Shown: positions 18,397 through 27,476 of the stretch, one piece after another
How the letters are laid out: every line of letters begins with the position of its first letter
Position numbering within the stretch: the stretch's first letter is position 1
NCBI GenBank assembly: GCA_902767315.1
Contig: CACXHB010000015.1
Span: 1-64,000, forward strand
Direction: 5' to 3'
DNA length: 64,000 nucleotides
From: an uncultured Eubacteriales bacterium
GTDB taxonomy: Bacteria; Bacillota; Clostridia; Christensenellales; Aristaeellaceae
The notes under the pieces: model-generated
Told to the model about the DNA's origin: nothing
Seen by the model: the letters and a program-made list of their open reading frames with translations, nothing else
Database searches by the model: none
Translations under genes and position numbers: made by a program

Positions 18397-18963
18397 ATGA
18401 AAGGCGTCTGGTGGTTGGCGCTGGCTGCGGGAGCCGCGGCGGCGCTGCCTAAAAAACAGGAGCACAATCTGATGAAGCTTCCTTCTTTCCGCGGCGTGGC
18501 AGAGGTGCGTTCCAGCCTGCCCGGGCGCATGCGTCTGTACGTGCCCACCATTCAGCAGCAGCCTGAATTGGCCCGACAGATGGCGGCGCAGCTGGAGGGC
18601 ACGGGCGTGATTCATCAGGTAGCGCTGCAGCCCGTGACCGGCAGCGTGCTGATTCGGTATGACGAAGCCCGGGTGCAGGCCAGCGTGGTGCTGGGGGCGG
18701 TCATGAAGCTGATGGGCCTGGATGAAAAGATAAAAGCCGCTCCCGTAAGCAAGGCGCGGCAGGGCGTCGCCCTTTTGCTGCGCAGCGTCAATCAGGGGGT
18801 ATTGGACGCGACCGGCGATCTTCTGGACGCGCCCACCCTGGCGGCAGGTGCGCTGACCATTGCGGCTTTGCGCAGCAAGAAATTGGAAGGCTGGGCCTCG
18901 CCCGGGGCAATGACCCTGCTGTGGTGGGCTTCCAAGCTATTTGGAGCGCAAGATTATGAATAA
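18397..18963 (+). CDS. HMA_2-type domain protein (first of operon)
   Basis: A 188-residue protein with an N-terminal hydrophobic anchor (GVWWLALAAGAAAALP) and a ferredoxin-like domain resembling the HMA_2 group: VRSSLPGRMRLYVP, then VLIRYDEARVQASVVLGAV. The CxxC metal site of classical HMA domains is absent. The C-terminal 90 residues contain weakly hydrophobic helices. AGGAGG is 7 nt before the ATG. It is the first of five genes around a P-type ATPase; the same SLPGRxRL signature recurs in the next two proteins, suggesting duplication of one module. Confidence 0.8.
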   Translation: MKGVWWLALAAGAAAALPKKQEHNLMKLPSFRGVAEVRSSLPGRMRLYVPTIQQQPELARQMAAQLEGTGVIHQVALQPVTGSVLIRYDEARVQASVVLGAVMKLMGLDEKIKAAPVSKARQGVALLLRSVNQGVLDATGDLLDAPTLAAGALTIAALRSKKLEGWASPGAMTLLWWASKLFGAQDYE

Positions 18964-19342
18964 GTTCAGCGAAGGGTTTTTGCGGCTGTGCCTGAAGCCC
19001 ACGGTGGAATGCAATCTGCCCGGCCGGCTTCGGCTGAGTTTTGGAAAATACCATCTGCTGCCCAAGGAGGCCGCGCCCTATCTGCATTATACTCAGGAGG
19101 TACTGCGGTTGCTGCCGGGGGTTTCCGCCGCGGAAATCAACCCGCGCATCGGCACGTTGCTGATCCGATATGACGCAAAAACCACCAACGCCCGGGCCAT
19201 ATTGCGCTGGGTGGACATTGTGGTGGACGAAGGCATCCAAATTTTCAAAGAGGACCTCTGGCAGGACGTGAGCGAAGCGACGCTGGCGCAGATCGTACGC
19301 CAGCGGCTGATTCTGCGGCTGCCTCAGCAAAAAGAAGGATAA
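18956..19342 (+). CDS. HMA_2-type domain protein (second of operon)
   Basis: A 128-residue protein almost entirely made of one HMA_2-like domain: CNLPGRLRLSFGKYHLL, then VSAAEINPRIGTLLIRYDA. No CxxC site. ATG 18956 overlaps the previous gene's end by 8 nt and has GGAG upstream; a TTG at 18941 is possible but less likely. It may be a regulatory or docking partner of the ATPase encoded 2 nt downstream. Confidence 0.8.
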   Translation: MNKFSEGFLRLCLKPTVECNLPGRLRLSFGKYHLLPKEAAPYLHYTQEVLRLLPGVSAAEINPRIGTLLIRYDAKTTNARAILRWVDIVVDEGIQIFKEDLWQDVSEATLAQIVRQRLILRLPQQKEG

Positions 19343-19344
19343 CT

Positions 19345-21525
19345 ATGCTTAGAAAAGAACACATTGACGGCTTTATGAAAAGTCGCGTCATGCACAGCCT
19401 GCCCGGCCGGCTTCGTCTGGCAGTGGAAGGACTGCAATATCTGAAGGACGAAAGCCCCGAAATCGCCGCGGAGCTGGCGGACATTCCCGGGGTGCGTCTG
19501 GCGCGGGTTACCGCCTGCACCGGCGGCATTCTCCTGCAATACGACGAGAAAATTCCGGATTCCAGCTTTCTTTCAGAGCAGACGGATCTGGTTCTGGCCC
19601 GGTACAGCATGGCCGCGCTGCGGGCGCGTCATGCGAAAAGCGGCGACGAACCCGTCGAAGCGCCCATGACCACCGCCCGGCTGGCCAAGCGTCTGGCAAT
19701 CAACGCCGGAGCGCTGGCCCTGGGGAATACGATGTTTACCACCCCGCTGATGGGCGGCGCACTGACGAACTTTACCTCGCTGGAAACGCTGGCCAGCCTG
19801 GGTCTTTCCGCGCCCATGGCCAAAAACGCCTGGGAGGGGCTGCGCCGGGAGAAGCGGCCCAACGCCGATTTCCTGACGGTGACCTCCATTGTGGCCAGCC
19901 TGCTGCTGGGCAACGCCCATTCCGCGCTGATGATTCTGGCCCTTTCCGATCTGGCGGAGCTGATGACCTCCTACACCATCGAGCGCACCCGTTCTTCCAT
20001 TAAGAAGATGCTCTCCGCCGACGAGGGCGAGGCCTGGAAGGTGCTTTCCGACGGCAAAGTGGAGCGCTGCCCCATGGCGCAGATCGGCACCGGCGACGTG
20101 GTGGCGGTGCACACCGGCGAAAAAATCTCCGTGGACGGCAAGGTGGTATACGGCGCAGCCGTGGTGGACCAGAGCCCCATTACCGGCGAATTCGTGCCGG
20201 TGGAAAAGCGGGAAGGCGACGAGGTATTCGCCGGCACCGTGGTAAAAAGCGGCACCATTCACGTGCAGGCCGCGAAGGTAGGCGATCAGACGGTAATTTC
20301 CCGCATTGTGGGCATGGTGGAGGCCAGCGAACTGAAGAAGGCCCCCATTCAGCGCTATGCGGACAAGTTTTCCAATTATCTGGTGCCGCTGAATTTCCTT
20401 TTGTGCCTGTCGGTATGGCTGGTGACGAAGAATCCCCAGAAGGCGCTGAAGATGCTGGTAATCGACTATTCCTGCGGCATCAAGCTTTCCACAGCCACGG
20501 CCTTCTCCGCGGCCATCAACACCGCCGTTAAGCAGGGCGTGCTGATCAAGGGCGGCACCTTCATCGAACAGATGAGCAGCGCCAACACCGTGCTGCTGGA
20601 CAAAACCGGCACCATTACCGAGGGCAAGCCTCAGGTAGTCTCCATGGCGCTTCTGAAGCCGGAAATGACCCACGCGGAGGTGCTTTCCTACGCCATGGCG
20701 GCGGAAGAGACCAGCACCCATCCCCTGGGCGACGCCATCATGCGTTACGGCCGGCAGCTGGGCGCACAGCCCTTGCCCCACGGCGACATCATCACGGAAG
20801 TTTCCCGGGGCAGCCGCACCCAGGCGGACGGCAAAATCGTGCGGGTAGGCAACTTGAAATACATGCGGGAAAACGGCGTCATCGCCGCCGCGCCGCTGCC
20901 TCAGGACACCGGCGCCATTCCCAACTATGTGGGCGTAGATCAGGAAATCGTGGCGGTATTGTACGCCATGGACAGCCCCCGGGAGAACGTGCGCCGGGCC
21001 ATCAACAGCCTGCGTTACGACGGCGTGGGCGACATCGAGCTGCTCACCGGGGATTTGGAATCTCAGGCCCGAACCGTGGCGGAGCAGGTAGGCGCGGACG
21101 GCTACCGGGCGCAGCTTCTGCCGGAACAGAAGGCGGAGGCCGTGCTGAAATTGCAGGTGCAGGGCAACGGCGTGGTAATGGTGGGCGACGGCATCAACGA
21201 CGCGCCTGCCCTGGCCTATGCCGACGTGGGCATTTCCATGGGCAGCAAGTCCACGGACATCGCCATGGAAACCAGCGACGTGATTATCAACCGGGACGAT
21301 CCCATGATGATTCCCGCGCTGCGCCGTCTGGCCCGGTCCACCATGCGCATTGTTCACCAGAACTTTGCCCTGGTAATCGCCATTAATTCCGTTGGCCTGA
21401 TTCTGGGCGCGGCAAGCGGCATCTCGGTGATGATGAGCGCTCTTTTGCACAATTCTTCCACCATTTTGGTGGTGGCAAATTCCCTGCGGCTGATGTTCAT
21501 GAAGCCCGGGGACGGGAGGGCATAA
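19345..21525 (+). CDS. Heavy-metal translocating P-type ATPase with SCG motif
   Basis: A 726-residue P1B-like ATPase. An N-terminal HMA_2-like domain (HSLPGRLRLAVEGL) replaces the CxxC domain. It has the actuator motif SPITGEFVP, phosphorylation motif DKTGTITEG, nucleotide-binding STHPLGDAI and hinge GDGINDAPALA. The transmembrane metal motif, normally CPC or SPC, is SCG in VIDYSCGIKLSTATAF, so metal preference differs from copper and zinc pumps; a similar Ser-Cys motif occurs in CtpC-like ATPases linked to manganese. Transmembrane helices occupy roughly 110-240, 345-420 and 655-720. Its stop overlaps the next ATG by one base (TAATG). Confidence 0.9.
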   Translation: MLRKEHIDGFMKSRVMHSLPGRLRLAVEGLQYLKDESPEIAAELADIPGVRLARVTACTGGILLQYDEKIPDSSFLSEQTDLVLARYSMAALRARHAKSGDEPVEAPMTTARLAKRLAINAGALALGNTMFTTPLMGGALTNFTSLETLASLGLSAPMAKNAWEGLRREKRPNADFLTVTSIVASLLLGNAHSALMILALSDLAELMTSYTIERTRSSIKKMLSADEGEAWKVLSDGKVERCPMAQIGTGDVVAVHTGEKISVDGKVVYGAAVVDQSPITGEFVPVEKREGDEVFAGTVVKSGTIHVQAAKVGDQTVISRIVGMVEASELKKAPIQRYADKFSNYLVPLNFLLCLSVWLVTKNPQKALKMLVIDYSCGIKLSTATAFSAAINTAVKQGVLIKGGTFIEQMSSANTVLLDKTGTITEGKPQVVSMALLKPEMTHAEVLSYAMAAEETSTHPLGDAIMRYGRQLGAQPLPHGDIITEVSRGSRTQADGKIVRVGNLKYMRENGVIAAAPLPQDTGAIPNYVGVDQEIVAVLYAMDSPRENVRRAINSLRYDGVGDIELLTGDLESQARTVAEQVGADGYRAQLLPEQKAEAVLKLQVQGNGVVMVGDGINDAPALAYADVGISMGSKSTDIAMETSDVIINRDDPMMIPALRRLARSTMRIVHQNFALVIAINSVGLILGAASGISVMMSALLHNSSTILVVANSLRLMFMKPGDGRA

Positions 21526-22229
21526 TGCGCAGCGAACAGGGAGCCATTCATCTGGAAGTATTGTCCGCAATCCGCGGACGGATTCGGCTGCAGCTGGAAC
21601 GCCCGATTTCCTCGGAAATTCCCTTTTGCAGCATACCGGGGGTAAAGGCCTGCCGGTATACCCCCCGCATTCGCACCCTTTTGTGCGAATATGACCCCGA
21701 AGTCATCGACGAGGCGCAGCTCATCGTCCGTATTGGCGCGGCCTACGCCCTCCAGTCTCAGGCCAAGCTTCTGCACGTCCGCCACTGCGAAGAGCAGGGA
21801 TTTTCCATGGCCCCCAGCGGCTATCTGGCGCTTCTGTGCATTGGGCTGGACGGGGCCCTTTCCCTGGCGGACTCGTCGCTGACGGCGTTTACCCGCTGGC
21901 TTTCCACGGGCGCGACGCTGGCCGCCGTGGTGGAGCATGGCTATCAGGAGCTGCACGTGCGAGGCAGCTTCGATCCCGAGGTCATGTCCATCGTCTATCT
22001 CATCAATTCCGTCGGCAAGCCCGGCGCGGTACGCGCCAGCCTGCTGGCGTGGATTATCACCTTTGGCCGTCATCTGATTCCCCGCTCTCCCCGCGAGCAG
22101 CCCTATCTGATCAAGCGCACAAAGGACGCGCTGACGCTGACCCCCATGGCGGGCGGCGAAAGCGAACTGGCCTTTGCCGGCAGCATGTTTCAGCAGGGTA
22201 TGGAAAAAATGATCGCGCACAAAGGCTAA
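21525..22229 (+). CDS. HMA_2-like protein with C-terminal helical region
   Basis: A 234-residue protein translationally coupled to the ATPase by TAATG. The first 80 residues again look like an HMA_2-type fold (LSAIRGRIRLQLERP, then CEYDPEVIDEAQLIVRIG). The C-terminal part has two mildly hydrophobic helices (SGYLALLCIGLDGALSLA and SIVYLINSVGKPGAVRASLL). No known catalytic motif. Likely an accessory subunit or regulator of the ATPase. Confidence 0.72.
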   Translation: MRSEQGAIHLEVLSAIRGRIRLQLERPISSEIPFCSIPGVKACRYTPRIRTLLCEYDPEVIDEAQLIVRIGAAYALQSQAKLLHVRHCEEQGFSMAPSGYLALLCIGLDGALSLADSSLTAFTRWLSTGATLAAVVEHGYQELHVRGSFDPEVMSIVYLINSVGKPGAVRASLLAWIITFGRHLIPRSPREQPYLIKRTKDALTLTPMAGGESELAFAGSMFQQGMEKMIAHKG

Positions 22230-22265
22230 CCTGCCTTTCCGGCAAGAAGAAGGAGGAAATTCTCT

Positions 22266-22532
22266 ATGTTCGGCAACAATCCGTTGGTCAAGGGCATTCT
22301 CATCGGCGTGGGCGCCAGCCTGGTGGGCTTCTGCGCCTATAAGCACAACGAGGACAAGGTGGACGGCTTCCTGCGCCGCCACGGCGTGAAGGTGAAGTCC
22401 CCCGCCGCCGGTTTCGAAACCATGTCGGTGGAAGATCTGATGCGCACCAAGGAAACCATCGAAGACCTGATCGCCGAGAAGGAGATGCAGGATCAGAGCG
22501 TGACGGTGGAAGCCGTTCCCGCGGAAGAATAA
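22266..22532 (+). CDS. Small single-pass membrane protein of the ATPase operon
   Basis: An 88-residue protein with one N-terminal membrane helix (GILIGVGASLVGFCAY) and a charged cytoplasmic tail containing a predicted helix (SVEDLMRTKETIEDLIAEKEM). AAGGAGG precedes the ATG. It is the last gene before a hairpin terminator. No family recognised. Confidence 0.7.
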   Translation: MFGNNPLVKGILIGVGASLVGFCAYKHNEDKVDGFLRRHGVKVKSPAAGFETMSVEDLMRTKETIEDLIAEKEMQDQSVTVEAVPAEE

Positions 22533-22619: not shown

Positions 22620-22646
22620 CCAACCTGAGGCCCGGAAATGCGTATA
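22620..22646 (+). promoter_or_regulatory. ECF-type promoter of the sigma-factor operon
   Basis: CCAAC (22620-22624) and CGTATA (22641-22646) are separated so that AAC and CGT are 16 nt apart, the spacing and composition typical of ECF sigma promoters. The same two elements with the same spacing occur at 24441-24467. It lies 31 nt before the GTG of the sigma gene, suggesting autoregulation. Confidence 0.65.
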
Positions 22647-22676
22647 ACCATACGAAAACAAAAGGAGGAGGAAACC

Positions 22677-23212
22677 GTGAATGAGACGCAACTGATTCGG
22701 CGCTGTCAACGAGGCGACCGACAGGCCTTTGAAACGTTGATTCGCCAGTATTACGATTATGTTTCCGGCTTCCTTCTGAAGGCGATGCAGGACGCGCTTC
22801 TGGCCCAGGACCTGACCCAGGAAACCTTTCTGAAAATGATCCGCAGCATCGAAACCTTCGATTGCAACGGCGCCGCCGGAATGGGCACCTGGCTTGTCAC
22901 CATCGCCAAAAACTGTTACGTGGACTACCTGCGCAAAACCGGATTGTTCTGGAGGACGTGGACGATCTTCCCCTTTCCGATGGGAAAGACGTTTCCGACC
23001 TGGTGGCGCGGCGCCTGCAATATCAGAAGGCGCTGGCCGCGATAGATTCCCTGCCCCCGGAACAGGGGCTGGCCATCCGGTTGAAATACGTGGAAAGTCT
23101 TACCCTGCAGGAAATCGCGCAGCGCTTCGGCGTACCTCAGAAAACCATTAAAAGCCGGATTCACGAGGGTACGGTAAAGCTTCGAAAGCTATTAAAAAAG
23201 GAGGATGGATGA
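22677..23212 (+). pseudogene. ECF-type RNA polymerase sigma factor, frameshifted
   Basis: Starting at GTG 22677 after AGGAGGAGG, the first frame encodes sigma region 2 (LIRRCQRGDRQAFETLIRQY, AQDLTQETFLKMIRSI, ending CYVDYLRK). At about 22936 the frame is lost. The -1 frame continues as RIVLEDVDDLPLSDG and then sigma region 4 (LPPEQGLAIRLKYVESLTLQ, EIAQRFGVPQKTIKSRIHEG). Adding one A to the AAAA run at about 22934-22937 would restore a protein of about 178 residues. Both halves are well conserved and the promoter is intact, so this may be a recent mutation or an assembly error. Functional status is open. Confidence 0.8.
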
Positions 23213-23215
23213 CCC

Positions 23216-23488
23216 ATGCGTCCGAATTCTGAGGATTGTATCCGCCAATTGACCCCGGCCATCGTTGAAAAATGCGATGCGCTGGCGGCAGCCCGGAAGG
23301 AACGAATTCAGGCCCGGCTGTTTCTGCTGTTGTGCGTTCTGGTGGTCACGGTACCGGCGCTGCTGGTGCTTTTCGGGGTTTCGCTGACGCTTCTGATCGT
23401 GCCAATTGTGTTTATGTGCCTGAGCACGCTGCTGCTTTTGCCGGCGCTGCTGAATAAAACGGAACATCAGGGAGGGATTTCTCTATGA
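23216..23488 (+). CDS. Small two-helix membrane protein next to the sigma factor
   Basis: A 90-residue protein starting 3 nt after the sigma-factor stop. A soluble N-terminal part of about 30 residues (IRQLTPAIVEKCDALAAAR) precedes two membrane helices (LFLLLCVLVVTVPALLVLFG and LTLLIVPIVFMCLSTLLLL). The position and topology suit an anti-sigma factor or partner, but no zinc anti-sigma motif is visible. Its end overlaps the next start by 4 nt. Confidence 0.72.
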   Translation: MRPNSEDCIRQLTPAIVEKCDALAAARKERIQARLFLLLCVLVVTVPALLVLFGVSLTLLIVPIVFMCLSTLLLLPALLNKTEHQGGISL

Positions 23489-24393
23489 ACAGGCTTGAAA
23501 AGATGCTTTCCAAATGGAATTTCAAAAAAATCGCGGTGTGGTATCTGGTGCTGGCGGTGATCACCGGGGTACTCTGCGGGGGAACCGTGGGCTATCTCTA
23601 CCGGCAGCGGCTGAAATTCGCCTGGCAGTACGCCCGTCTGGAAGAGGCAAAAACCCCGGAAGCCCTGCGCATGGCGGCGGACAAAACGGCAGCCGCTTCC
23701 GAAGACGTGGTGGACATTCTGGTGGTGGACGAAAACCAGCAGATTCTCTATTCCGCCAAGGATTCGAAATTTGCGGCGGGCCCCCTGACGCTAACCAAAG
23801 TGGGCGACGCGAAGAAATACCTGGCTTCTGCCGATTATCCGGAGGCAGTGTTTTTGCAGGTCAAGGGCGACGAATTCATGCTGAACTCCATCGTAAGCCA
23901 CGATTTCGGCAAGATCCGCAGCGAATATGACGACGAAAGCGCCTTCGAGAATGGGCTTTCCGCCAAGACCGTGTACATGCTCAACCGCGTTCAGGCCCGA
24001 AAGGCAGGCGGCACGGCATACGTCATCACCCGGCCCACCTCTGTACCCGGCGGCGAAACGGCTTTAAAGGTCACGGCGGCGCTGGCCATGCTGCTGGTCT
24101 GCGTCTACTGGGTGCTGGTGGCCCTGTGGATGTATCGGGACGCGGCCCGGTGCAAGCTCTCTCCCCTGTATTGGGGGCTCATCGGCCTGTTTACCAACCT
24201 CATCGGCCTGATCGTCTACAAAATCTACAAGCACAGCGCCACCCTCTGCCCCGCCTGCGGCGCGGCTCAAAGCGCCGGACACCTGTACTGCTCCTTCTGC
24301 GGCGCTCAATTGGGAGCCCGCTGCGCCAATTGCGGCGGCAAGGTGGGGGCAAAGGACAGTTTCTGCCACCATTGCGGCAACAAGATCAAATAA
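23485..24393 (+). CDS. Membrane protein with C-terminal double zinc ribbon
   Basis: A 302-residue protein. One N-terminal membrane helix (IAVWYLVLAVITGVLCGG) is followed by an extracytoplasmic domain of about 150 residues that resembles a sensor fold (DVVDILVVDENQQILYSA). Two further helices come near 195-245, then a cytoplasmic tail with four CxxC pairs (CPACG, CSFCG, CANCG, CHHCG), i.e. a double zinc ribbon. Co-transcribed with the sigma factor; it could sense an envelope signal and relay it to the sigma unit. That role is inferred. Confidence 0.8.
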   Translation: MNRLEKMLSKWNFKKIAVWYLVLAVITGVLCGGTVGYLYRQRLKFAWQYARLEEAKTPEALRMAADKTAAASEDVVDILVVDENQQILYSAKDSKFAAGPLTLTKVGDAKKYLASADYPEAVFLQVKGDEFMLNSIVSHDFGKIRSEYDDESAFENGLSAKTVYMLNRVQARKAGGTAYVITRPTSVPGGETALKVTAALAMLLVCVYWVLVALWMYRDAARCKLSPLYWGLIGLFTNLIGLIVYKIYKHSATLCPACGAAQSAGHLYCSFCGAQLGARCANCGGKVGAKDSFCHHCGNKIK

Positions 24394-24405
24394 AATTCAT
24401 CGCCT

Positions 24406-24437
24406 CGGCTCCGTTTTTCCGCGGAGCCGAATTTTTG
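24406..24437 (+). terminator. Rho-independent terminator of the sigma-factor operon
   Basis: A 9-bp stem (TCGGCTCCG at 24406-24414 with CGGAGCCGA at 24423-24431) is followed by a five-T run. It lies directly after the zinc-ribbon gene and just before a second ECF-type promoter. Confidence 0.85.
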
Positions 24438-24440
24438 TTC

Positions 24441-24467
24441 CAACTTTTTTTGCGGAAATACGTATAA
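24441..24467 (+). promoter_or_regulatory. Second ECF-type promoter
   Basis: CCAAC (24441-24445) and CGTATA (24462-24467) repeat the motif and the 16-nt AAC-to-CGT spacing found upstream of the sigma gene. It would drive the truncated gene at 24531. Confidence 0.6.
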
Positions 24468-24530
24468 GAAAATGAAAGGTCCAAAAGGCCGATTCGCCGA
24501 CGGAAGCCGGCGAAAGAAAGGAGTCTCTAC

Positions 24531-24730
24531 ATGAAAACAAAAGACCATCTCCTGCTGGGACGATTTGTATTAAAATATGAGGGGCTCGCCCTGGATTCCC
24601 TGCGGCAGCGGATGTTTCTGTGGGGCTGCGTAGAGCCGGATTACAATCCCTTCACCTATGCCCGCGGTTCCCTGAAGCACGCCTTCCTTCGGGGACATCA
24701 CACGGAAAACGACCGACGCCGTGTCAATGC
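24531..24730 (+). pseudogene. Truncated zinc-dependent phospholipase C-like gene
   Basis: The frame begins after GAAAGGAG with MKTKDHLLLGRFVLKYEG and continues through FLWGCVEPDYNPFTYARGS and LRGHHTEN, a pattern seen at the N-terminus of zinc-dependent phospholipase C-family proteins (N-terminal metal-ligand region). It then breaks off and runs into sequence belonging to an ABC ATPase remnant on the other strand. The missing C-terminal two thirds points to a deletion or insertion near 24730. Confidence 0.5.
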
Positions 24731-24810
24731 CGGCGATAGAGGAAAATCTTTATAAACGCTCTCATTCCGGCCGCTTAATGTGCCTCGGGTGCGGCGCACA
24801 CCGCGCTCTC

Positions 24811-25035
24811 TCATACGAGGATCTTCCCATCGTTGATCTCAATCCTTCGCCTGCACAGGTTGGCGTACCGCTGCTCATGCGTCACCAGCAGCACGGTGTT
24901 TCCGCGACGGTTGACGGCGAGCAGCAGCTCCATGATCTCGTCTGCCGCCTTTTTGTCGAGATTCCCGGTAGGCTCGTCGGCAAGAAGAATCACCGGGTCG
25001 TTGATCAGGGCGCGGGCACCATAAAGCATTGACAA
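24811..25035 (-). pseudogene. ABC transporter ATPase, C-terminal fragment
   Basis: The minus strand encodes ARALINDPVILLADEPTGNLD (Walker B and D-loop), then GNTVLLVTHEQRYANLCRRR (H-loop) and INDGKILV at the stop, typical of a MacB/LolD-like exporter ATPase. Walker A and the signature motif are missing; sequence upstream of 25035 is unrelated. This is the leftover 75 residues of a gene whose 5' end has been lost. Confidence 0.75.
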
Positions 25036-25036
25036 A

Positions 25037-25097
25037 CCCCGCCCTTTGCTATTTGACGGGGGTGTCAGCGGTCCGAACCACCCGTTCGAGGGTGGTT
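25037..25097. repeat. Two inverted repeats at an accessory-region junction
   Basis: CCCCG (25037-25041) pairs with CGGGG (25057-25061), and AACCACCC (25076-25083) pairs with GGGTGGTT (25090-25097). They lie exactly where the ABC ATPase remnant ends and before the AT-rich orphan gene, so they may mark the end of an inserted or lost element. Neither is followed by a convincing T-run. Confidence 0.45.
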
Positions 25098-25117
25098 GTG
25101 TGCTTAATGGATATGAA

Positions 25118-25819
25118 TTAAATCTGGTTTTTGTAGGTATACCTAATAACAGGCTCGACTTTAATAAATTCTCTTGAACCAAGGAAGCTCTTATACTTAT
25201 GTTCGAAAGATTGTTCGCCTGATGTATCTTCAATATAGCCCATGTGCTCATAGGGGGAATATCGCCGATCTTTGTAATAATACTGACACTTTTCAATGGC
25301 GTATAGGAGTTCAATATGAATTTTATCCTTAGCTGCCAATTGCTGTAGAATTTCCCATACAGACTGCCAATGTGCCGTTTTGTTTACATAGACATGGTAT
25401 GTACTAGTTAAAAAATGCTCTTCATTCTGGCTTCTTTGGGTAAACAAATCCCATCCTACGTTCATATCACCTTCAACATAATAGATCCTGAATCCTTTGC
25501 TGCTGTATATATCTTTTGCTGATTCCATAACCTTTTCACAATTGCAAAGATAATCAGGACTATCTTTATACATCTGTTCTACTTTGTAAGCAACCCATCG
25601 CGGTCCACGAATATCATAATCTCCGGTGATATTCACAATGCCAACGCAATCACGAACCCGATTTTTAATTTGATTCGCGGCTGCATCACAGATTGTTTTA
25701 TAGATGTGTTTTGCCATTGTTTTATACCCTTCGGAAATATCTAGCAAACATATATTGCGAATGATCTTAGATTGTTCACTAATTTCGGAAGTTTTCTGTA
25801 TTGAATCCTGCAATCCCAT
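25118..25819 (-). CDS. AT-rich hypothetical protein
   Basis: A 233-residue protein with no family I recognise. It is rich in aromatic and charged residues (RGPRWVAYKVEQMYKDSPDY, RIYYVEGDMNVGWDLF, KCQYYYKDRRYSPYEHMGY) and has no membrane helix or signal peptide. ATG 25819 is chosen since AGGAGG lies 7 nt upstream. Its base composition is clearly more AT-rich than its neighbours, and it sits between broken genes and an insertion sequence, so it was probably acquired by transfer. A defence or toxin-type role would be speculation. Confidence 0.75.
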   Translation of the reverse strand: MGLQDSIQKTSEISEQSKIIRNICLLDISEGYKTMAKHIYKTICDAAANQIKNRVRDCVGIVNITGDYDIRGPRWVAYKVEQMYKDSPDYLCNCEKVMESAKDIYSSKGFRIYYVEGDMNVGWDLFTQRSQNEEHFLTSTYHVYVNKTAHWQSVWEILQQLAAKDKIHIELLYAIEKCQYYYKDRRYSPYEHMGYIEDTSGEQSFEHKYKSFLGSREFIKVEPVIRYTYKNQI

Positions 25820-25863
25820 CTTTATACCTCCTGTCACATAAATGATCAAATGATATTTCTTCT

Positions 25864-25892
25864 ATTATAACGCAATGAATTGTTAATATCAA
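25864..25892 (-). promoter_or_regulatory. Promoter of the AT-rich orphan gene
   Basis: On the minus strand, -35 TTGATA (25887-25892) and -10 TATAAT (25864-25869) are 17 nt apart. The orphan gene thus has its own promoter. Confidence 0.65.
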
Positions 25893-26231
25893 TATTTATT
25901 TGCGACTAAATATGAATATTAACGACATACTAACAAAAAACGAAAATAGGAGGACTTAATGAGATGTACTATTCATGAAAAAAGGGACGCTCCGGAAGCC
26001 TGCAAATAAAAAGTCAAGTCCCAAATGAGTCATAACCGAAAAAAGTTTGAGAAGGGAAAAAGCAAAATGCGTACACCAAACAGACCACCGCCGAAACGCC
26101 GGTCGAAAAGGAGCGGTAGCACAGCCGTCGCGGTCCGTCAAGGACATGCGGCTGCGCCGTGCCTGCGGCATCCTTGACAGACCGCGCCGTCTGAGCAGTG
26201 CAGAGGTCAAGAGCTTGCGCGGCAAGCTCTA

Positions 26232-27476
26232 TCAGTCAGAGCTGCCCGGTTCCAGCATGGGCTGATCCCAGAGTCCCTTCGCCTTCAGGCAGTCGCGAAC
26301 GCGGCCGTAGTAAATGCGCAGGAATTTGGTCATCCCGGCGGTCATGTAGACGTAGTACTTCTTGCCCTCGGATCGCTTCTTGTCGAGGAACTGGTAGACG
26401 GGATCGTCCTGCGGCTGAAGCTGAAGCAGGATGGTCATGACGACAAAGAGCGTTTTGCGCAGGTAGGGAGAGCCGCGTTTGCTGCTGGGCTTGCTTTCAG
26501 AAACCTTGTCGCCGGAATCATCCTTGATGGGATCGGTTCCCGCAAAGCCTACCAGCGACTTCTGATGCGCGAAGCGGCGCAGGTCGCCGATCTCGGCGAT
26601 CAGCTGCGGGCCCATGGATTTTCCGACGCCGGTCATGGCCATGACGGTCTCGTATTCCGGAAGCTGAGAGGCCAGGCGATTCATCTCGGCGCGGTAGGCT
26701 TCCACCGTGCGGGAAACAGTTCTGAGCTGAGCGACCGCTTCCTTCACCAGCAGCCTGCAGGTGTCGGACTTGGGCACCAGCGGAAACTTCTGCCGGGCGT
26801 CCGCGTGCAATTCAAGAGCTTTCTGCTCGGAGAAATTGTAGCCGTGACGTTTGCACCACTTCCGGTAGCGCTCCGCAAAGGCGCTCCGGCTGAGACTGGC
26901 GACGCAGTCCACGTGCCAGAAGGTATCCACGAAATCGACCCACTTCTGGCTGCCGTCCGGTCGCACCGGGCTGTCAAAGTAACGGTTTACACCGGGATAG
27001 CTCTGCTCCAGCAGGGCTATCAGGTTGTTGTTCAGCGCGGTTCTGGTCTTGCTCGACAGCTGGAACTGCCGGTGCAGCGTCTTGAGATCATAACGAATCG
27101 TATCCATGGGAGTATATTGCGGCAAAATCTCCCACTTGTCAAGAGCGGACTGGGCGATTTTCAGAGCGTCGGCCCTGTCGGTCTTCACTTTGCGGACGTC
27201 GACGCCCTCCCGGTAGTCTTTGATGACCAGCGGGTTCACGGCGGAGACGAAGAAGCCGGCGCGGTACATGCTCATGGCAAAGGATTCGTAATACCGGCCC
27301 GTGTGCTCCATGACGATCCGAGCTTCGCCGTTCAATCCGCGCAGCTTCTCTATTAGAAAAGCAAAGCCGTCCGCGGTGTGCGGAACCTCGAACGGCTTCA
27401 TGACAACCTTCCGCCGGGCGCCGAGCACGGCAGCCGTGCTCCGGCCATTGGAAACATCTACCCCAACTGCGAACAT
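26232..27476 (-). CDS. IS110-family transposase (bridge-RNA-guided recombinase type)
   Basis: A 414-residue DEDD recombinase. The N-terminal RuvC-like domain has GVDVSNGRSTAAV (first Asp), RIVMEHTGRYYE (Glu) and KTDRADALKIAQ (two Asp). The C-terminal Transposase_20 domain has MTGVGKSMGPQLIAEIGDLR and the catalytic serine region SSKRGSPYLRKTLF. All key residues are present and the gene is full length, so the element may be active. In this family an RNA from the end upstream of the gene specifies target and donor DNA. Confidence 0.95.
   Translation of the reverse strand: MFAVGVDVSNGRSTAAVLGARRKVVMKPFEVPHTADGFAFLIEKLRGLNGEARIVMEHTGRYYESFAMSMYRAGFFVSAVNPLVIKDYREGVDVRKVKTDRADALKIAQSALDKWEILPQYTPMDTIRYDLKTLHRQFQLSSKTRTALNNNLIALLEQSYPGVNRYFDSPVRPDGSQKWVDFVDTFWHVDCVASLSRSAFAERYRKWCKRHGYNFSEQKALELHADARQKFPLVPKSDTCRLLVKEAVAQLRTVSRTVEAYRAEMNRLASQLPEYETVMAMTGVGKSMGPQLIAEIGDLRRFAHQKSLVGFAGTDPIKDDSGDKVSESKPSSKRGSPYLRKTLFVVMTILLQLQPQDDPVYQFLDKKRSEGKKYYVYMTAGMTKFLRIYYGRVRDCLKAKGLWDQPMLEPGSSD

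Follow-up and report, generated by a model that had tools for sequence, protein, structure and literature searches.

Two matching promoter sites of the ECF type in the 64-kb window (the whole stretch of 64,000 nucleotides analysed here) are best explained as a whole, with a probability of about 0.85 on comparative sequence grounds, as genuine promoters of the sigma factor encoded at 22677-23212, one serving its autoregulation and the other a separate target, in an envelope regulon resembling that of SigM. The two sites lie 1.8 kb apart on the same strand, and each is found 5' of an ORF with a ribosome-binding site. Site 1, CCAAC-N16-CGTATA, occupies 22620..22646 (+) before the sigma operon and was recognized by motif match, by its counterparts in relatives and by matrix score; site 2, CCAACTTTTTTT...CGTATAA, occupies 24440..24466 (+) directly after a terminator and was recognized by motif match and matrix score. 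In both, exactly 16 nt separate AAC from CGT in the window sequence. A preliminary description of this DNA had reported CCAAC and CGTATA with this spacing before both genes, and the two elements are indeed present in front of each on the plus strand; its coordinates for site 1 (22620-22646) are exact, whereas site 2, which it began at 24441, truly starts one base to the left, at 24440.

The near-exact form of the motif is rare. With spacers of 15-17 allowed, the exact pattern occurs twice in the window against 0.03 expected from dinucleotide shuffles, and 0 of 100 shuffles contained two. We also searched the genome to which the window belongs (2.6 Mb in 168 contigs, 94.7% complete): CCAAC-N16-CGTATA matches these two sites only (a backwards control pattern gave 2 matches), the stricter CAAC-N16-CGTRTAA recovers the same two only across the whole genome (control, 1), and a 28-base form including a T-tract, with at most two mismatches, recovers 24440 only (controls, 0), site 1 being devoid of the T-tract. 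When two mismatches are allowed in the bare 11-base form it occurs at 10 sites against 8.6 expected, which is the chance level; hence, only the near-exact motif is informative. The scan with the two-block motif thus disposes of the concern that the motif might be frequent genome-wide. The similar flanks that had been noted (GGAAATxCGTATAA) are common to both sites, which share GGAAATNCGTATAA, a sequence found nowhere else in the window. However, none of the relatives has GGAAAT in its promoter, and therefore it is not a recognition element of this promoter family.

The gene behind site 1 encodes an ECF sigma factor whose frame is interrupted. Its start codon is the GTG at 22677, preceded by a ribosome-binding site read from the sequence, AGGAGGAGG (22663..22671, +); an ATG at 22638 suggested by ORF calling sits inside promoter 1. 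The gene (22677..23212, +) is frameshifted near 22940, such that residues 1-89 with region 2 (22677-~22945) and the remainder with region 4 (~22940-23212) lie in different frames in this assembly. The preliminary description missed this break, for which an assembly error is possible; an uninterrupted ORF is needed for function, not for the assignment by descent. Both halves are readily recognized in Pfam searches (N part, PF04542, E 1.5e-16; C part, PF04545, E 3.2e-14, and also PF08281), and TIGR02937 scores above its cut-off for both halves as well as for the intact orthologues. The presence of regions 2 and 4 only, joined by a short linker, places the protein among the ECF (group IV) factors. 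The best NCBIfam model for the N part and for the intact orthologues is SigY, PRK09638, but the intact orthologues reach only 120 and 138 bits against its curated cut-off of 194, and hence the protein is not a SigY equivalog. Orthologues are intact in six relatives, while that of Candidatus Avimonas narfia (locus L054) is also frameshifted between regions 2 and 4 (L054:5360-5375), at a different position. We considered a programmed frameshift and rejected it, given that the two breaks are at different positions and the six orthologues run uninterrupted; inspection by eye shows no obvious in-frame slippery heptamer at either break, that of the window or that of L054. The same genome encodes a second ECF sigma (L093, C134:191-1655), followed by a putative anti-sigma of zf-HC2-type appearance; the C134 sigma gene ends with a match of another kind, AAC...CGTCTAA, which is weak. 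Directly upstream of the sigma operon is a compact metal-export-like cluster (18941-22532), in which a heavy-metal P-type ATPase (19345-21525) is placed between two proteins with weak HMA_2 similarity.

Two genes for membrane proteins follow the sigma gene, neither with an NCBIfam match. The first (23216..23488, +) encodes a 90-aa protein with an N-terminal part of about 33 aa, containing a Lys-Cys pair that is invariant in the family, and two subsequent stretches resembling membrane helices; no Pfam or NCBIfam family scores above cut-off. Since it appears membrane-bound and is encoded beside the sigma factor, it is likely to be the anti-sigma factor. Its cytosolic part of about 33 aa, in which Pfam and NCBIfam recognize no ASDI/zf-HC2 domain, is below the 50-aa limit given for class I anti-sigma factors (PMC7406223), and from its sequence it would be class II-like at most. 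The second gene (23485..24393, +) encodes a 302-aa protein comprised of a helix, a Cache/PAS-like extracytoplasmic domain, two further helices and a C-terminal double zinc ribbon (Pfam DZR, E 1.2e-7). In a structure model built from three sequences (mean pLDDT 68), the chain begins with a long helix and passes through a domain of mixed alpha/beta type (residues ~55-190) and two more helices to the zinc ribbon. Most of the structures that resemble it best are sensor domains of the Cache type (WalK, KinD, TlpA), with weak scores (best Foldseek E 0.04; VIA Z about 6-7; Z 5-7 among the top neighbours), and a sequence search of the PDB returned weak zinc-ribbon matches only. We regard the protein as a putative sensor. 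The operon ends in a hairpin resembling an intrinsic terminator (24405..24430, +), followed by ATTTTTGTTC. Site 2 starts ten bases after the hairpin and is in turn followed by a ribosome-binding site and the ATG at 24531; given this order, site 2 would start a new transcript.

The gene behind site 2, proposed earlier as the single target, does have the promoter in front of it, but it proves to be only the 5' part of a gene of the PF00882 type, the rest being cut off. Its ribosome-binding site, read from the sequence, is AAAGAAAGGAG (24513..24523, +), and behind it stand the first ~65 codons of a gene resembling those for zinc-dependent phospholipase C (24531..24725, +), with the ORF continuing to 24755 in unrelated sequence. 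The match to PF00882 is weak (E 0.017; 15.5 bits against a gathering threshold of 26.8) and does not extend to a full domain. An intact 196-aa paralogue in the same genome (PF00882, E 1.4e-14, 54.9 bits) is ~51-54% identical to the ORF, over the first ~60 residues only. As the homology stops there and debris lies beyond ~24725, the target gene is truncated; its remainder is not found elsewhere in the genome. A search for the fragment in 60 relatives recovered only the paralogue in the window's own genome, near which there is no CGTATA. The region at 24725-27476 is a mosaic of debris including, in antisense, the C-terminal piece of a gene for an ABC ATPase (24811-25025), an AT-rich stretch (GC 0.37) with a 243-aa ORF at 25118-25849, and, judged by eye, an IS110-like transposase (26232-27476).

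The association between motif and sigma factor was examined in relatives. None of the 396 genomes of the window's own order holds a full-length homologue of the 302-aa protein besides that in the window, and conservation was therefore tested at the class level, where a search with the 302-aa alignment detected it in 10 of 391 genomes, the window's own included. Five of these ten, besides the genome of L053, carry the genes for the sigma factor, the small protein and the large protein in this order. A scan of the genome collection gave as closest relatives L054 and L053 (an uncultured Clostridia bacterium), with sigma factors 59% and 51% identical to that of the window over the alignment. In all, seven Clostridia relatives share the three-gene operon of an ECF sigma, a two-helix protein of ~90 aa and a zinc-ribbon membrane protein of ~300 aa, and in 7/7 of them AAC-N16-CGTRTAA (spacer 17 in one case) precedes it. 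The look at related genomes that had been suggested as a check thus places the motif at the same position in seven other lineages. In L053 the promoter is GCCAACTTTTTT...CGTATAAT with a spacing of 16, before a DedA gene that heads the operon, and in L054 it is CCCAACCAACC...CGTATAAC with a spacing of 17, directly 5' of the sigma gene. Each of five class-level sigma genes is preceded by CAAC[CT]TTTTT (CAACCAAACA in L088), 16 nt between AAC and CGT, and CGTGTAA, and the motif in most members takes the form CAAC[CT]TTTT-N11-CGTRTAA. AAC and CGT elements before the sigma factor's own operon, kept in orthologues, are what is expected of an autoregulated ECF promoter, and we infer that both sites in the window are active as promoters.

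A scoring matrix trained on the seven foreign promoters only, with spacer penalties set by hand, ranked 24442 first (27.2 bits) and 22622 second (15.1 bits) in the 64-kb window, followed by an unrelated site at 10.2 bits. The score of site 2 is above all 200 dinucleotide shuffles (maximum 23.3), whereas that of site 1 is no better than the best of 64-kb shuffles (mean best 14.2). The chance of reaching the latter score in a 130-bp stretch is 0.0006; hence it is only its position that makes site 1 convincing. In the window's own family, genome G005 has CGCAACATTTTT...CGTATAAC, with a spacing of 17, just before another ECF sigma (L090:7790). A protein distantly related to the zinc-ribbon protein is encoded in G005 as well, and this may be a related module.

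The genes adjoining these operons suggest what the regulon might comprise. In genome G543 (L087) a perfect site stands between the large gene and a P-type ATPase gene, which is the layout of site 2; in G557 a perfect site precedes a P-type ATPase on another contig, and in L082 the ATPase occupies the corresponding position, but the site is weaker. The operon has a DedA/VTT gene as a neighbour in L053, L054, L084, L085 and L086, and a PAP2 gene in the last three of these (VTT, PF09335, confirmed by Pfam in L053, L054 and L084, and PAP2, PF01569, in L084; the others were read from sequence). Neither DedA nor PAP2 genes were found under this promoter in the window's own genome, and in the window they do not flank the operon. 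DedA/VTT is a family of undecaprenyl-phosphate flippases, and PAP2 one of undecaprenyl-pyrophosphate phosphatases. With these genes beside the operon, the best reading is an envelope module like those of SigM or SigY, and by analogy it probably serves carrier-lipid or membrane homeostasis. In the L053 genome (C62) a good second site (L091:4046), with a RecQ-like helicase gene on one side and, ~215 nt away, a uracil-DNA glycosylase gene on the other, might represent an extra target or a small RNA. The motif is also matched in G792 ahead of a uracil-DNA glycosylase gene, but with the gene ~215 nt away and another promoter-like stretch in between we treat it as an unproven target. Two other candidates were rejected: a site on C46 of G575 inside a coding gene, and one on C159 of G502 behind which no correctly oriented gene of 60 aa or more begins within a short distance. 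At L087:5181-6112 of G543, what remains of the 302-aa gene, without its first ~57 positions, has a perfect ECF-type site on either side; the sigma and small genes are absent at L087, and a search for a close sigma elsewhere in G543 gave a best E of 1.3e-18 and no close homologue.

Taken together, we propose that site 1 would make the sigma operon autoregulatory, and that site 2, just behind the operon terminator, would start a separate transcript over the target gene. The small two-helix membrane protein, as a putative class II-like anti-sigma, would hold the sigma factor inactive, and the 302-aa membrane sensor, with its Cache-like outer domain and cytosolic zinc ribbon, would influence the anti-sigma. 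Once released, the sigma factor would transcribe very few genes, all concerned with the envelope and membrane lipids, with DedA/VTT, the PAP2 phosphatase and the P-type ATPase as proposed targets across Clostridia, and the phospholipase C-like gene here. Such working would resemble the SigM/YhdLK control of carrier-lipid homeostasis in B. subtilis. The comparative evidence strongly supports autoregulation and a very small regulon, as the preliminary description had it with one target, with the amendment that both the sigma frame and that target are broken in this genome.

As regards the broken genes, it is nearly an even bet that the circuit in this strain is a relic, with promoters kept by descent that nothing now uses, and this is compatible with our preferred explanation of what the sites are. 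A decaying circuit is suggested by the sigma factor split into two frames together with a target cut at ~24725 and succeeded by the antisense ABC-ATPase fragment, the AT-rich unrelated DNA and the transposase, and comparable breakage recurs in the frameshifted sigma of L054 and in G543, which keeps both sites without a close sigma; several of these genomes are metagenome assemblies. On the other hand, neither the two operon genes behind the sigma gene nor the two promoters are damaged, and the sigma halves still score well for their respective regions, implying that any decay is recent, and a one-base assembly error would look identical. The circuit here is hence either recently inactivated or affected by such an error.

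Other explanations concern the sites themselves. Site 2 might be read by a paralogous ECF sigma, such as that on C134, as ECF promoters are related to each other, but we consider this improbable because site 2 is the genome's best match to the motif of this sigma's own orthologues and lies directly behind the sigma operon in a layout also seen in L087. The resemblance of the GTATAA within CGTATAA to TATAAT might also point to housekeeping sigma-A promoters with TATAA as the -10 element; this is very improbable, as scanning for the consensus reveals no promoter of the sigma-70 type at site 1 or site 2 and the relatives keep AAC as the -35 element and CGT at a fixed spacing rather than TTGACA. 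Even though the control counts show that the bare 11-base motif arises about once or twice per genome by chance, conservation at the same place in seven other lineages, along with the shuffles, leaves chance similarity of two unrelated sequences with hardly any likelihood. The reading of both sites as promoters of the neighbouring sigma factor is therefore preferred, and that this is an ordinary kind of system is well supported. A bolder and rather doubtful generalization is that a previously undescribed ECF module of Clostridia, made of the sigma factor, a tiny two-helix anti-sigma and a Cache-zinc-ribbon receptor, senses a signal at the outer surface and controls one or two carrier- or membrane-lipid promoters, and that it has been repeatedly broken or lost while its promoters persist.

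What began as an observation on two sites thus becomes a minimal ECF regulon that is conserved and whose promoter motif is defined, and CAAC[CT]TTTT-N11-CGTRTAA can serve in searches of Clostridia for the module and the genes it targets. As a promoter study of C. difficile left the consensus sequences of its ECF sigma factors still to be identified (PMC7438776), comparative motifs of this type should be useful. We found no description of this sigma/two-helix/zinc-ribbon module in the literature. AAC and CGT are the -35 and -10 hallmarks of ECF factors, which are typically autoregulated and co-transcribed with their anti-sigma factors (PMC8103513). The sites described here agree with canonical autoregulated ECF promoters in these elements, in the spacing of 16-17 and in their place 5' of the sigma factor's own operon, but differ in the extended T-tract after AAC in most members and in the -10 element CGTRTAA; the candidate anti-sigma likewise departs from canonical systems in its very short cytosolic part and lack of a recognized class I domain. 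With Cache receptors such as WalK, KinD and TlpA/TlpC the 302-aa protein shares the predicted order of helix, Cache-like domain and helix, with weak structural scores, but it has no kinase or methyl-accepting part and ends in a double zinc ribbon. In the B. subtilis SigM regulon, the enzyme BcrC belongs to the PAP2 family and UptA to the DedA family. SigM and its membrane anti-sigma complex respond to undecaprenyl phosphate, and SigM controls bcrC and uptA for UndP recycling (PMC11081497); DedA flippases are also dealt with in a further paper (PMC12893004). The present system is like SigM/YhdL-YhdK in that the ECF sigma shares its operon with two membrane proteins and, in relatives, has DedA and PAP2 genes beside it, and is unlike it in that the third gene combines a Cache-like domain with a zinc ribbon, that the regulon consists of one or two transcription units with a CCAAC/CGTRTAA promoter, and that the best model for the sigma is SigY. 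To SigY of B. subtilis it is in turn linked by that top-scoring NCBIfam model, PRK09638, and set apart by a score below the cut-off and by downstream genes that NCBIfam does not match. The module may thus provide a carrier-lipid or membrane response similar to that of SigM, but with a sensor of another architecture.
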